From Symbiobacteriaceae bacterium (GTDB lineage: Bacteria; Bacillota_E; Symbiobacteriia; Symbiobacteriales; Symbiobacteriaceae): a DNA stretch of 8,913 nt. The stretch spans positions 1 through 8,913 of the forward strand of contig DAHVXO010000236.1 of assembly GCA_027356675.1 (NCBI GenBank). Direction: 5' to 3'. The notes below the pieces were generated by a model. That model worked only from the letters and a program-made list of their open reading frames with translations. It had not been told where the DNA came from and ran no database searches. How positions within the stretch are numbered: the first letter of the stretch is position 1; each line of letters starts with the position of its first letter. A program made the translations under genes and the position numbers. Shown piece by piece: positions 1 to 7,094 of this stretch.

Positions 1-289
1 CCGGCAGCACGGCCTCCGCCAGGTATTCCACCGCCGCCTCGTCGCGACCCAGTCCCGCCACGAAGTCCAGGTGTACGAAGAGCAGCTTGCCGGCCTTGCT
101 TGTGGCGTCGGCAACTGAGCCGAGCCGGGCGATGGAGGAGCCCAACAGGAAGACTACCCGCGCCAGCGAACTCAACGCGGCCTCCAGGGATTGCTCGTCC
201 CGCACCGCCGCGATCACCGGATGCGCCCGCAGCCCCGCAGTCAGGGCCTCCAGGGCACTGGCGTTCCCTGTGGGATGGACCGGACCCAT
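1..289 (-). CDS. glpP: Glycerol-3-phosphate-responsive antiterminator GlpP, N-terminal half (cut by window edge)
   Basis: Reading the minus strand from an ATG at 289-287 gives 96 codons with no stop to the window edge. The translation has the GlpP landmarks: HPVIAAVRD at residues 23-31, a hydrophobic strand RVVFLLGSSI at 44-53, and KLLFVHLDFVAGLGRDE at 68-84, followed by AVEYLAEAVLP. In the family GlpP is an RNA-binding protein of about 190 residues with a TIM-barrel-like fold. It binds glycerol-3-phosphate and prevents premature termination in the leaders of glycerol genes (glpFK, glpD). The ATG is chosen because GAGAGGTGAGG lies just upstream. A terminator at 376-401 separates it from the ArsC-like gene, so it probably has its own promoter. 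A TTGACA lies at 346-341, but I see no convincing -10 at the right distance. The C-terminal half is outside the window. Confidence 0.85.
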   Translation of the reverse strand, partial: MGPVHPTGNASALEALTAGLRAHPVIAAVRDEQSLEAALSSLARVVFLLGSSIARLGSVADATSKAGKLLFVHLDFVAGLGRDEAAVEYLAEAVLP

Positions 290-360: not shown

Positions 361-401
361 TCAAGCACAAAAGTCCGGAGGGGCCACATGAGACCCCTCC
401 G
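361..401 (-). terminator. Intrinsic terminator after the ArsC-like selenoprotein gene
   Basis: An 8-bp perfect GC-rich stem (CGGAGGGG at 376-383 pairs with CCCCTCCG at 394-401) closes a 10-nt loop. Read on the minus strand it is followed by ACTTTTGTGCTT, a modest U-tract. It begins about 20 nt past the TAA of the ArsC-like gene (422), the normal place for a terminator. It also lies 87 nt before the glpP ATG, so a role as a glpP leader attenuator cannot be excluded. Confidence 0.7.
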
Positions 402-421
402 AACTCATATGTCCTTGTCCC

Positions 422-778
422 TTAAGCCAGGAACGCACCGAGGCTCTTGGCATCCAACCCGACCACTGCCGTACTGCCCCGTACGATGATCGGCCGCCGC
501 CACAGCCCGGGCTCCGCGGCTAACAGGCTCAGGAGTTCCTCATCGGAAAGCTCCCGCTCCGCCAACCCCAATTCTTTGAACCGCCGGCTCCGGGTCGAGA
601 GGATATCCCGGGCACCACCCGGCAGCAGGGCTGCCAGGGTCCTGACCTCCTCCACCGTCGCCTTCTGCTTAAAGAACAGCCGCTCCTTGATCTGGACCGG
701 CGAGGCGCCAAGCACCTGCTTGGCCTTCTGGCAGGAGCTTCACGTCGGATACGTATAGAAGGTTACCTCCGTGCTCAA
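422..778 (-). CDS. ArsC/Spx-family thioredoxin-fold selenoprotein (in-frame TGA read as selenocysteine)
   Basis: Starting at TTG 778-776, which has AGGAGG 7 nt upstream, the frame encodes 118 residues if the TGA at 740-742 is read through. The N-terminus is MSTEVTFYTYPT-U13-SSC16-QKAK. This is the beta1 strand and active-site loop of ArsC/Spx/YusI proteins, which normally read C-x-x-C-[RQ]-K-A. The UGA replaces the first, catalytic Cys and Cys16 is kept as the resolving residue. The rest is family-typical and intact: STRS at 61-64, EPGLWRRPII at 89-98 with the RRP motif, and a C-terminal helix. Length matches the roughly 115-130 residues usual for the family. Opening the gene at GTG 715 instead gives 97 residues lacking the first strand and the whole active site. 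The likely role is a thiol/selenol reductase in the cytoplasm; the substrate (arsenate, a disulfide or a peroxide) is unknown. Its RBS overlaps the stop of the upstream hydrolase gene, so the two are one operon. Alternatives are a Cys-to-stop mutation or a sequencing error. Confidence 0.87.
707..724 (-). promoter_or_regulatory. Candidate bacterial SECIS element
   Basis: In the mRNA, GCCAAGC (724-718) pairs perfectly with GCUUGGC (713-707) around the 4-nt loop AGGU (717-714). The stem starts 16 nt and the loop 23 nt after the UGA. Bacterial SECIS elements lie within the coding sequence just after the UGA, with a small apical loop carrying a G near its 5' side, about 16-37 nt from the UGA. This hairpin meets those rules and would be bound by SelB. 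A competing fold, AAGC-U-CCUGC (740-731) with GCAGG-U-GCUU (719-710), starts at the UGA's own last base and excludes this one. Confidence 0.7.
740..742 (-). other. In-frame UGA, predicted selenocysteine codon 13
   Basis: Minus-strand codon 13 of the ArsC-like gene is TGA. It lies in the CxxC position (T-U-S-S-C-Q-K-A), with coding sequence of the same family in the same frame on both sides. Apart from this TGA the frame is open from the TTG at 778 to the TAA at 424-422. Cys/Sec exchange at exactly the redox-active residue is the standard signature of a selenoprotein. Confidence 0.85.
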
Positions 779-789
779 TCCGCCACCTC

Positions 790-1674
790 CTAGAATCGCC
801 GATAGCCACCCCGCTGTCCTTCGGTCGGGATTACCGGGGTAACCGGCCGCAGCCTGCCGTGAAGGAAGTCAGCGGACATCCGATTGTAAACGGCGGGGTG
901 CTCTGCCATACATAGACACCCGGCCCCCGGCACGACCGCCACGCGCGCATCGACCATCTCGGCCGCCGCCTCCAGCGCATCCGCGGGCGAGGCCAACCCA
1001 TCCCGCTCTCCTACCACGAGGAGCACGGGTTGGGTCACCTCCCGCAGGGAGTCCAGCAAGGGGTAAGCGGACTGGGCCAGCAGGTCGCCGTATCGGACGA
1101 TCGGGCTGGTGTTGCGCCAGCGCGTCATCTGGGCGGAGACCAGCTGCCGAGGTACTGCAGCACTGAACAGATTGGCAACGAATGCTTCGGCCGCCTCGCC
1201 GCGGGCGGCCGCCTCACGGGTGGCGTGACAGGCCCGACCACCTTCGCTGAGGCCGCTCAGGATCAGACCAACCACCCGATCGGGCACGCTCAGCGCCAGA
1301 TCGACGGCAATTGACGAGCCCAGACAGACCCCGACCACGGCGACGGGCCAGCGAATCGCCAGGGCGTCCAGGAAGCCGAGCACCGCCTGCCCGTACTCTG
1401 CCACCGAAGCGGACCCCAGGCCCTCTGACCGCCCATGACCAGGCAGGTCAAGGGCGATGCACCGGGCACCTTGCGACAGACCAACCAGTTGCGCCTGCCA
1501 CGTGGCGGCCGTCCCGCCGTCCTCATGCAGGAAAAGCACAGTCGGACCATGTTCGGATAGACCGGCTGTCTCGTAGTAGACACTCACGCCATCGACTTGG
1601 ACGGACCCGCGTGAGCGAATCTCAGAGCCCTTCACGCGTCTCGCATTCACCCTGGACGAGTAGATCAGTCCCAT
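790..1674 (-). CDS. Alpha/beta-hydrolase fold protein with Cys at the nucleophile and His positions
   Basis: The 294-residue product has the alpha/beta-hydrolase plan: beta3 and oxyanion loop VLFLHEDGG (46-54), ALDLPGHGRSEG (74-85), nucleophile elbow VVGVCLGSS (113-121), acid strand VLLVVGERD (217-225), and the C-terminal PGAGCLCMAEHP (249-260). The nucleophile is Cys117 in G-x-C-x-G, not Ser. Where relatives have the catalytic His (GAGH), this protein has Cys253, with Cys255 close by. Asp225 is kept. A normal Ser-His-Asp esterase is therefore unlikely. It could be a divergent thiol enzyme, a non-catalytic binding protein, or carry a disulfide or metal between the paired Cys. The ATG at 1674 has no strong SD; internal GTG codons at residues 9 and 14 are possible starts. 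No signal peptide is evident, so it is probably cytoplasmic. Its TAG is 11 nt from the start of the ArsC-like selenoprotein gene, so they are cotranscribed. Confidence 0.8.
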   Translation of the reverse strand: MGLIYSSRVNARRVKGSEIRSRGSVQVDGVSVYYETAGLSEHGPTVLFLHEDGGTAATWQAQLVGLSQGARCIALDLPGHGRSEGLGSASVAEYGQAVLGFLDALAIRWPVAVVGVCLGSSIAVDLALSVPDRVVGLILSGLSEGGRACHATREAAARGEAAEAFVANLFSAAVPRQLVSAQMTRWRNTSPIVRYGDLLAQSAYPLLDSLREVTQPVLLVVGERDGLASPADALEAAAEMVDARVAVVPGAGCLCMAEHPAVYNRMSADFLHGRLRPVTPVIPTEGQRGGYRRF

Positions 1675-5250: not shown

Positions 5251-5958
5251 TTACGGGCGGCGGGGCGATGGTGTCGGGGTCGCCGGCGCCCCCAGCGGAC
5301 CCGGGCGAATGGGTGTCTGCGGTTCCTGACCCATGGGCTCTTGCGGCGCCGGACCCTGGCCGGGCCGGGTCAGCGACGGACTCTCCGGCCCTTCGCCCTG
5401 GTCGAAGAGGCGGTACTTGTCTGCCAGCTGGATCTGCCAGAGCCGGTGGATCGGCATCTGGTAGAGCGTCGGTTCGATGCGCCGATCGCCCTTTCCGATT
5501 GGGTACATCCAGATCGCCGGCTCGGTCACGATCCCCTCATGCATCCGCACGCCTATGTAGATCGAATCCCGGTACCCCTTCTTGTAGCAGATGACCGTCA
5601 ACTGCCCGTGCAGTTCCGCCAGCAACTGCTCCAGCCTGGGGTTGCGGAAGACCGGAGCGTCGATTGCAGGTGCCACGCCCTGGGCGTTGGTCTCGACCCG
5701 GTCGCCGCTCTCGCCCACGGCGCACCCGGCCCCGGGGATGCCCTTCTGTGTGATGGCGTCCACGACGGAGATATGCAACTTCGCCGTCTTGACGCCCAGT
5801 ACCCGCCAGTAGGCCCGGCGGATCATGCCGGCTGGCTGTGGCACGCCTTTTCCCTCGGACGCCTCCGTCACCTGATACCCTGCCAATCCACCGGCGATGA
5901 CCAACACTAGCACCACCGCCAGCCACTTGATGCGCGTCACGCTTCTCCCCCTCTTCAC
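5251..5958 (-). CDS. Membrane-anchored exported protein with Pro-rich C-terminus, function unknown
   Basis: I do not recognise this protein. The 235-residue product has a basic N-terminus and one hydrophobic segment at about 12-30 (KWLAVVLVLVIAGGLAGY), a signal anchor or signal peptide. Residues 58-100 (AKLHISVVDAITQKGIPGAGCAVGESGDRVETNAQG) resemble the carboxypeptidase-regulatory-like beta-sandwich seen in secreted proteins, a weak similarity by eye. A mixed region with ICYKKGYRDSIYIGV follows. The last 45 residues are a Pro/Gln/Gly-rich, probably unstructured tail. The first start is GTG 5958, 3 nt after the SpoIID-like gene's stop. GTG 5940 (codon 7) has a better SD (GAGGGGGAG) and may be the real start. 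Tight spacing puts it in an operon with the SpoIID-domain gene, so a role at the cell envelope or in sporulation is likely but unproven. Confidence 0.75.
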   Translation of the reverse strand: MKRGRSVTRIKWLAVVLVLVIAGGLAGYQVTEASEGKGVPQPAGMIRRAYWRVLGVKTAKLHISVVDAITQKGIPGAGCAVGESGDRVETNAQGVAPAIDAPVFRNPRLEQLLAELHGQLTVICYKKGYRDSIYIGVRMHEGIVTEPAIWMYPIGKGDRRIEPTLYQMPIHRLWQIQLADKYRLFDQGEGPESPSLTRPGQGPAPQEPMGQEPQTPIRPGPLGAPATPTPSPRRP

Positions 5959-5961
5959 GTC

Positions 5962-6579
5962 TTACCCCGGCAGCGACATGAGCGAACGGCCCTGATAGTA
6001 CCACTGCAAGATCCGGAGCATGTTGTAGCCCTGATCGGCCCAGTATTGCGTGCCCCACTGGGACATCATGTTGGCGTTGCGGTACTCCCAGTTCGGTCCG
6101 CCCTCGTATCCCGCGCGGTAGTTGAGCTCTACAATCGTACCGTCGGGCGCCGTGTAGGCCACGTTCCGGGTGCGCTGGTAGGCTTCGTTGGCTGTCGCAA
6201 AGCGGTTTCCCTCGCGATAAGTCTGGAAGTTGGTCGTGTTGTCCAGGTCAAACTCCCAACCATCCAAAATGGTCGGGTGGAGGACATGATACCAGGCGAA
6301 CATCTTCACCGCCATGGCGCCGGCCTGGAGCGCCTCCTGCTGCCAGGACGGGATCCACTCGTTGGGCAGCGAATCGTACACGTAATTCTCGAAGGGGACC
6401 GTCTTCACGTAGATGATACGGCCGCGCGGGTTTGGCTCCCCGTTCGGCCGCGCCTCCCGGATCGCGACTCGGATCGCTGTGGGATAGGGCGTGTTGTAGA
6501 TCGTCTGGTTCTCGGCCAGGGCGCTGGTCGGACTCATTGCCAGGGTAAACAACAGGACCAGAGACAGGATGCGCTTCAC
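5962..6579 (-). CDS. Exported SpoIID/LytB-domain protein, short form
   Basis: The 205-residue product has a signal peptide (MKRILSLVLLFTLAMSPTSALA, cleavage near 22). A SpoIID domain follows: VKTVPFENYVYDSLPNEWIPSWQQEAL (58-84), QAGAMAVKMFAWYHV (85-99), and the C-terminal MSQWGTQYWADQGYNMLRILQWYYQG (172-197). The last matches the family pattern M-S-Q-x-G, then A-x-x-G, then I-L-x-x-Y-Y. SpoIID is a lytic transglycosylase that trims denuded peptidoglycan during engulfment. The Glu of the P-N-E motif, catalytic in the Bacillus protein, is kept as Glu74. At 205 residues it is well short of classical SpoIID (about 340) and is close to a lone domain. Start is GTG 6579 with GGGGGG upstream; a better SD, AAGGAG at 6611-6606, precedes an in-frame ATC instead. 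It probably acts outside the membrane on the cell wall; whether it is the sporulation SpoIID or a paralogue cannot be told here. Confidence 0.82.
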   Translation of the reverse strand: MKRILSLVLLFTLAMSPTSALAENQTIYNTPYPTAIRVAIREARPNGEPNPRGRIIYVKTVPFENYVYDSLPNEWIPSWQQEALQAGAMAVKMFAWYHVLHPTILDGWEFDLDNTTNFQTYREGNRFATANEAYQRTRNVAYTAPDGTIVELNYRAGYEGGPNWEYRNANMMSQWGTQYWADQGYNMLRILQWYYQGRSLMSLPG

Positions 6580-6635
6580 GGCTGACCCCCCGATTGAGAT
6601 GAACTCTCCTTAATCTCTCCGCACCCGGCGCCGGG
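6580..6635 (-). other. Short intergenic spacer with 12-bp palindrome
   Basis: CCCGGCGCCGGG (6624-6635) directly abuts the stop codon of the cupredoxin-like gene on the minus strand. It is a perfect 12-bp palindrome but leaves almost no loop and has no U-tract, so termination here is doubtful. AAGGAG at 6611-6606 is the strongest SD in the gap. The lipoprotein and SpoIID-domain genes are probably cotranscribed across it. Confidence 0.4.
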
Positions 6636-7094
6636 CTATTCCACTTTTAACGTGCCAACCAGGGATGTCTCCGGCTCGCCGGGCGCGTCCGAGTACAGTG
6701 GCCAGTCACCCTTTTCGCCGGCCGTAAACTCAACGTAGGACTCCTCGCCCGGCCCCAGGGTACGCGTGACAATGCCGTAACGGGGGATGATGACGTTGTG
6801 CGCGGCGGTGCCCGCGTTGCGGACGTGGATGCGCACTTGGCCGCCCACCTTGGCCGGGATGATCTGCGGTCGGAAGCCGCCCTCCGTGATGGTCAGGTCG
6901 ACAATGCCCGTCTTGCCCGCCATCTGCAGGGCGATGGGGACCGGCGCCTCCTGCATGGCCAGAATCTCCGGACCGGATGGGGTGGAGTCGGCCTTCGCAC
7001 CCGCGGCCGGCTGCTCGGCGTGGCGCCCCGGGCCGCCGCCCGCCCCGCAGCCGGTTATCATCAGCATTAGTAGAACCAGGCAGACCGCGCGCAT
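6636..7094 (-). CDS. Cupredoxin-like lipoprotein lacking most copper ligands
   Basis: The 152-residue product opens with a lipoprotein signal, MRAVCLVLLMLMITGC, whose lipobox ITGC puts the lipidated Cys at 16. A low-complexity linker follows to about residue 60. A cupredoxin-type beta-sandwich then runs from 62 to 152: ITEGGFRPQIIPAKVGGQVRIHVRN (69-93), AAHNVIIP (97-104), and GDWPLYSDAPGEPETSLVGTLKVE (129-152). In copper-binding relatives the last segment reads Y-C-x-x-P-G-H-x-x-x-x-M-x-G. Here Cys is Ser135, His is Glu140 and Met is Leu145; only His99 remains. It probably does not bind copper as a blue-copper protein. It should sit on the outer face of the membrane. The ATG at 7094 has GAGGAG 9 nt upstream. 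It is the first gene of a probable operon with the SpoIID-domain gene (56-nt gap) and the Pro-rich protein gene. Confidence 0.82.
   Translation of the reverse strand: MRAVCLVLLMLMITGCGAGGGPGRHAEQPAAGAKADSTPSGPEILAMQEAPVPIALQMAGKTGIVDLTITEGGFRPQIIPAKVGGQVRIHVRNAGTAAHNVIIPRYGIVTRTLGPGEESYVEFTAGEKGDWPLYSDAPGEPETSLVGTLKVE

Follow-up and report, generated by a model that had tools for sequence, protein, structure and literature searches.

A probable selenocysteine codon in an Spx/ArsC-like gene of Symbiobacteriaceae and its relatives

Why does a small gene of the Spx/ArsC type carry a TGA at the very codon where its homologues encode the catalytic cysteine, and what would its product do if that codon were read as selenocysteine (Sec)? 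The question is raised by a locus on the minus strand of a contig from a Symbiobacteriaceae bacterium, of which the analysed stretch, 8,913 nucleotides in all, is called the window throughout.

Reading frame, flanking signals and database records

The frame on the minus strand (422..778) opens with TTG at 778, meets TGA at 742-740 and continues to a TAA, yielding 118 residues with the motif U13-x-x-C16. The TGA (740..742, minus strand) is codon 13 and occupies the position of the catalytic cysteine of both Spx (C10) and E. coli ArsC (C12). A Shine-Dalgarno sequence AGGAGG, read directly at 786..791 on the same strand, lies 7 nt ahead of the TTG; it overlaps codon 792-790, at which the alpha/beta hydrolase gene upstream (790..1674, minus strand) terminates 11 nt before the TTG, and this overlap suggests translational coupling. 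On the 3' side stands an intrinsic-terminator-like hairpin of 15 pairs with a T-rich tail (371..406, minus strand), which by number carries little weight, since one such hairpin was found and the shuffle mean is 1.0. With cysteine written for the TGA, the frame matches the Pfam ArsC family (PF03960) at 2.2e-19. The standard gene call, in turn, is a 97-aa open reading frame from GTG 715, and the protein database holds the same short form as record P0002. The initial annotation of the locus, which described a ribosome-binding site before a TTG start, a TGA at the first cysteine of CxxC followed by an open frame to the end, and a standard call from GTG 715 that loses the active site, is thereby borne out.

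The truncation extends to the records of relatives. A protein database search returned 96 matches including the window itself and hence 95 non-self relatives, 85 of which begin at residue 14-45 as inferred by local alignment, that is, after the catalytic residue. The active-site half is missing from these 85 records, and copies of the gene are recorded as truncated genes in many related bacteria. The other 10 relatives are full length, and all of them have cysteine at position 13, the alignment that the initial annotation had anticipated; some of the records of relatives are named as RNA-polymerase-binding regulators. Two of the matched records, P0003 and P0004, show 86% and 81% identity. Bacterial selenoproteins are marked by an in-frame UGA where homologues have cysteine, and judged from sequence the gene bears this mark.

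The TGA codon and a downstream hairpin among relatives

How constant is this codon? A scan of genome contigs located nine loci, with a catalytic TGA in seven (two of these titled Chloroflexi) and TGC in two. In the family of G001, which includes the Symbiobacteriaceae locus L001, the gene is found in five of five genomes, four times with TGA and once, in G011, with TGT. Searches with a full-length profile covered a phylum and a class sample under E-value limits of 1e-10 and 1e-15 for the two samples, which share a few genomes; both consist of assemblies of unstated completeness, and at most 15 (phylum) or 29 (class) first-look candidates were scored per genome, so that family matches may have been missed. 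The phylum sample gave matches in 62 of 299 genomes at 73 places, 30 with one TGA and 43 with no stop, and neither TAA nor TAG lies inside any of the 73. In the class sample, 72 of 154 genomes match, likewise at 73 places: 60 contain TGA, one contains TAG and 12 are stop-free. For two of the 60 the match as reported takes in another TGA; a single TGA lies within the aligned stretch.

DNA-level reading covered every place with a TGA in either sample, the whole class list and, for the phylum, 19 of the 43 places free of a stop. The TGA of the aligned rows falls in the catalytic column, and among the homologues so read the catalytic codon is TGA, TGC or TGT, and never TAA or TAG. Removal of nine duplicate loci and of identical stretches left 124 rows, 91 with TGA at this codon and 33 with cysteine. 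Counted by genome, in a sample centred on one class and drawn under two E-value limits, the TGA form is present in 87 of the 131 genomes that gave a match to the family, which does not agree with the earlier expectation that ArsC-like Sec proteins are rare. Apart from the catalytic TGA codons, the aligned stretches contain a single in-frame stop, the TAG, which lies elsewhere in a Cys-type copy, L092 (G382:C26:2115-2453), with a catalytic TGT. The same genome has a TGA-type copy, L098, on a different contig, and L092 is possibly decaying after duplication.

The TGA of the window is followed by a bSECIS-like hairpin (707..724, minus strand) that spans the 16th to the 33rd nucleotide after it and consists of 7 bp closed by the loop AGGU. 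This structure, GCCAAGC-AGGU-GCUUGGC at 724-707, has a folding energy of -11.1 kcal/mol and a z of -3.92 against synonymous shuffles. We compared the best hairpin of each row, with G required in the first two loop positions, against synonymous shuffles, and obtained a mean z of -1.64 for the 91 TGA rows versus -0.12 for the 33 Cys rows (Mann-Whitney p 5.6e-7); the whole 51-nt fold gives mean values of -0.86 and -0.23 (p 0.02). A helix of at least six contiguous pairs in a fixed register is present in 62 of the 91 TGA rows versus 1 of the 33 Cys rows, the latter serving as control because the registers were picked post hoc, with the window and its relatives in view. The 6-bp helix is absent from the other 29 TGA rows, including L071 and L007, from the family of G001, which are two of the nearest rows.

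Seven close TGA rows, chosen in register, have 98% of their cells paired, versus 22-55% when the register is slid, and contain one compensatory pair (CG and AU). Of 500 shuffles of this alignment, 16 reach its covariation score and 436 its number of doubly changed pairs, and because of the latter figure the seven rows are weak evidence by themselves. Folded without constraint, 53 nt of the window sequence prefer another pairing (z -0.18), the energy of a 43-nt fold is no better than that of shuffles (z 0.20), and no Rfam family matched in the window. What defines a bSECIS element, a hairpin just downstream with a G in its apical loop, is accordingly seen by comparison of rows, and the longer single-sequence folds do not stand out. 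A stricter test of Sec against hairpin on phylogenetically independent pairs gives a median p of 0.25, which is not significant, although no pair runs in the opposite direction; with five pairs the numbers are too small for significance.

Among the Cys forms, L004 (genome G004, TGC) retains a 6-bp hairpin in the SECIS register. The hairpin looks like a remnant, since G004 still has selA, selB and tRNA-Sec, and L004 itself looks like a recent change from Sec to Cys. Together with G011 (TGT) it forms near-relative pairs with the TGA-bearing G010 and L001, which are natural material for testing what Sec buys.

Selenocysteine decoding and its alternatives

The genes for Sec insertion accompany the TGA form in relatives. 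All 87 sampled genomes with this form carry selA or selB. In the phylum sample, where selA is found in 198 of 299 genomes at E 1e-50 (197 over cut-off), it is present in 30 of 30 TGA genomes versus 8 of 32 Cys-only genomes; the corresponding figures in the class sample are 55 of 60 and 4 of 12. For the union of the samples this amounts to 82 of 87 versus 12 of 44 (Fisher p 1.4e-15, with genomes counted as species and not as independent events). The five TGA genomes without selA all have selB over cut-off, and two of the five have tRNA-Sec. In the family of G001, selA and tRNA-Sec are present in five of five genomes (every tRNA read as tRNA-SeC by ARAGORN) and selB in four of five; in G001 itself selB was not found, the best match having 92.9 bits. 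Among the nine genomes of the contig scan, seven have selA and seven have selB over cut-off. The tRNA-Sec search counts eight of these nine, of which seven are credited because the match in G003 is a tRNA-Ser; G009 stands among the seven without an ARAGORN reading. One selA match, G427:C33:64640-65902, contains a TAA in frame; its genome has a TGA-type copy of the Spx-like gene.

The conserved TGA, the hairpin and the association with selA in relatives all support the initial view of the gene as a selenoprotein with Sec at the catalytic cysteine position, cut short by gene callers. We regard it as probable, on the strength of these sequence comparisons, that Sec is decoded here and forms a Sec-Cys redox pair in an Spx-like fold. 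The in-frame UGA would be decoded with the help of the bSECIS hairpin 16-33 nt downstream, as the comparison with relatives suggests.

Could the TGA instead be a damaged cysteine codon, left by decay of the gene or by a sequencing error? A single base separates it from TGC or TGT, but an error or a pseudogene is very unlikely because TGA stands at the same codon in 7 of 9 scanned loci, in 60 of the 73 class places and in 30 of the 73 from the phylum, with no TAA or TAG there; the hairpin downstream and the association with the Sec machinery also speak against it. In addition, synonymous change (uncorrected) exceeds non-synonymous change on both sides of the TGA in nine of ten pairs of TGA rows, the exception being L008/L009, whose upstream ten codons have no synonymous change at all. 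We reject the pseudogene on the restriction of the catalytic codon to TGA, TGC and TGT and on this excess of synonymous change. Reassignment of UGA in the host to Trp or Gly, with residue 13 not being Sec, could draw on the absence of TGA as a stop from all nine window genes read, but it is scarcely credible. In the window genes the Trp codon is TGG; nearly full-length alignment with relatives is obtained for the 3-hydroxybutyryl-CoA dehydrogenase and Fe-S genes, which contain no internal TGA; TGA is the stop codon of 11 of the 19 genes read from near relatives, including the same Spx-like gene in L001 and L002; and residue 13 aligns with cysteine. The TGG codons, the nearly full-length TGA-free neighbours and the TGA stops of near relatives lead us to discard an altered code.

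Fold, candidate function and gene context

What kind of protein would be made? The nearest solved structures by sequence are Spx (E 2e-29) and then ArsC-type proteins. The predicted model has a mean pLDDT of 90.4, and its best fold match is Spx 1z3e (TM 0.89, 32% identity), which is Spx complexed with the C-terminal domain of the RNA polymerase alpha subunit. Spx is also the likeness seen with profiles: with Cys written for Sec, the protein passes the Spx/MgsR model TIGR01617 narrowly (76.7 bits, cut-off 75.05). It differs from Spx in staying below the cut-offs of the Spx-proper models PRK01655 (76.8/123), PRK12559 (59.3/159) and PRK13344 (47.7/152), and in having 118 residues where most Spx chains have 131-132. 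A plasmid search gave 37 records, all below 60% identity, and the named ones among the best 20 of the 37 are Spx-type.

At residue level, Spx C10, C13, G52, R60, K62 and R92 have their counterparts in U13, C16, G55, R63, R65 and R95. The position of the redox pair and the equivalents of G52, R60 and R92 are shared with B. subtilis Spx, whereas Sec stands at C10, Arg at K62 and Glu at K66. In an alignment of 70 of the 97 proteins, window included, the G52 equivalent is Gly in 69 rows, and those of R60, K62 (as Arg) and R92 are Arg in all 70. Position 13 is missing from 62 of the 70 rows because these are truncated calls, and position 16 is occupied in ten rows, in five of them by Ser. According to the available text of PMC2801614, active Spx has an oxidised C10-C13 pair, contact is made in part through G52 and alpha-subunit Y263, and activation requires R60 and K62.

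The product would be a thioredoxin-fold Spx/ArsC-like protein in which Sec13 and Cys16 replace the C10-C13 redox pair. The function that we favour, with a confidence just short of even, is that of an Spx-type redox switch. The selenolate of Sec13 would be attacked by an oxidant, Cys16 would then close a selenenyl-sulfide, and the change would be relayed to the basic helix-4 region (R63, R65) and to R95; the oxidised protein would act on RNA polymerase via the C-terminal domain of the alpha subunit and would be reset by a thioredoxin-type reducing system. In G011, a relative, the alpha C-terminal domain contains the motif RSYNCLK, with Tyr at what we take to be the place of Y263, to which the spacing of C265 and K267 fits. 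This is weak support for a switch, since Y263 is described as a conserved residue of Gram-positives. If the switch is true, the gene encodes a selenoprotein transcription regulator, and should the function prove Spx-like, selenium would have a direct part in the control of transcription.

Nearly as much credence, still on the lower side of even, is due to a selenoenzyme with no regulatory role, a Sec reductase of disulfides, of glutathione or selenenyl adducts or of peroxides, in which Cys16 would be the resolving residue. The fold is that of glutaredoxin and ArsC, and catalysis fits better where the distant Sec groups lack the Spx contact residues and where, in 24 of the 91 TGA rows, Ser, Ala or Val replaces the resolving cysteine. 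The near relatives argue the other way: UxxC is kept in all ten rows taken as the window's clade, the equivalents of G52, R60, K62 and R92 are retained almost without exception (69-70 of 70 rows), and no thioredoxin- or glutaredoxin-type partner was found among the eight other window proteins scanned. Since Sec forms elsewhere lose the resolving cysteine and the G52 and R60 equivalents, the switch is plausible for the UxxC clade of the window and the enzyme for the others. Sec forms with UxxS, UxxV or UxxA (L101, L056, L052, L149 and others) probably follow a chemistry different from that of the window's UxxC.

Arsenate reduction, which the initial annotation had named among the possible reactions, finds less room. 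The fold and PF03960 are those of ArsC, and Sec aligns with ArsC C12 and R95 with ArsC R94. ArsC relies on an Arg triad, R60, R94 and R107. The corresponding positions here are S61, R95 and a gap, so that the triad is not kept and the likeness to E. coli ArsC is confined to the fold and the catalytic position. The ArsC model TIGR00014 gives 54.2 bits against a cut-off of 106.05, the nearest structures are Spx, and no arsenic-resistance family was found among the eight other window proteins scanned. We consider an arsenate reductase with Sec for its catalytic cysteine improbable, and on the TIGR00014 score and the incomplete triad we reject it.

Proteins of this general type are already on record. 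We take cd03032 to be the ArsC_Spx subfamily. In the available part of the Global Ocean Sampling selenoproteome (PMC2398784), Arsenate reductase 2 is assigned to cd03032 with UxxC in 42 sequences, and ArsC 1 has UxxS. The former resembles the window protein in having Sec in the UxxC of an ArsC-superfamily protein, and differs in consisting of marine reads, the two being compared by description only. The Sec arsenate reductase of the Sargasso Sea, as the accessible portion of PMC1088965 describes it, has 14 sequences and shares Sec at the ArsC catalytic position, with UxxS in place of UxxC. ArsC-like selenoproteins are reported from two deltaproteobacteria in PMC1794560, whose list of 12 selenoproteins of Symbiobacterium thermophilum has no ArsC-like entry in the text available. 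The excerpted text of a 2026 review (PMC13188914) places an arsenate-reductase-like UxxC family, likewise ArsC-like with Sec, under NF041106. Measured against that model (ArsC_rel_Se_1), the window protein scores 38.8-38.9 bits, far from the cut-off of 85, and the best E among 38 scanned members (32 of the 91 TGA rows and 6 Cys forms) is 7.5e-15. As 38.9 bits corresponds to 1e-9 there, no scanned member would reach 85 bits, and we do not count the window protein as a member of NF041106. Within the parts of the literature searched, a Sec-containing Spx by that name was not found; the terms ArsC, arsenate and Spx do not occur in the text available of PMC12013277 and PMC5029168, and recent reports of new selenoprotein families may contain the group. 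Sec-containing ArsC/Spx-like UxxC proteins are thus known, and the group of the window is widespread and stands outside the curated NF041106 model.

The distribution of the two forms was also followed on a quick tree of 123 rows, built from few columns and without the partial L007. On this tree the Sec/Cys label must change no fewer than 11 times, 5 of them on well supported branches, and the mean for shuffled labels is 29.3; the tree is unrooted, so that the direction of change is not read. A wider reading, which we hold tentatively and consider less likely than not, is that Symbiobacteriaceae and their kin sense oxidants with Spx-type RNA-polymerase-binding regulators by a Sec-Cys switch. 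Across Bacillota and Chloroflexota, the larger Spx/ArsC-like family would in that case have exchanged Sec and Cys at this site no fewer than 5 times (11 on the best tree), with Cys-type Spx possibly arising inside a Sec-rich family.

The gene context is conserved and points to no partner. Upstream in the window lie genes for an Fe-S oxidoreductase, a 3-hydroxybutyryl-CoA dehydrogenase and the alpha/beta hydrolase; counterparts of all three occur in L002, of the dehydrogenase and the hydrolase in L001, and of the Fe-S oxidoreductase in L171 and L172, with the hydrolase gene also 5' of the Spx-like gene in L001 and L002. The downstream gene (2..289, minus strand), which is cut by the window end, has homologues that are glycerol-3-phosphate-responsive antiterminators (PF04309), and such a homologue is also found downstream in L001, L171 and L172. 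Farther along the window, three adjoining genes occupy 5251-7094; one product matches no Pfam family, another is SpoIID-like, and the third is cupredoxin-like and begins with a lipobox-like segment. In G011, the stretch L172:5290-6400, which lies upstream of the Cys-type gene, has a repeated peptide-like motif in open frames on both strands and is probably a tandem repeat array.
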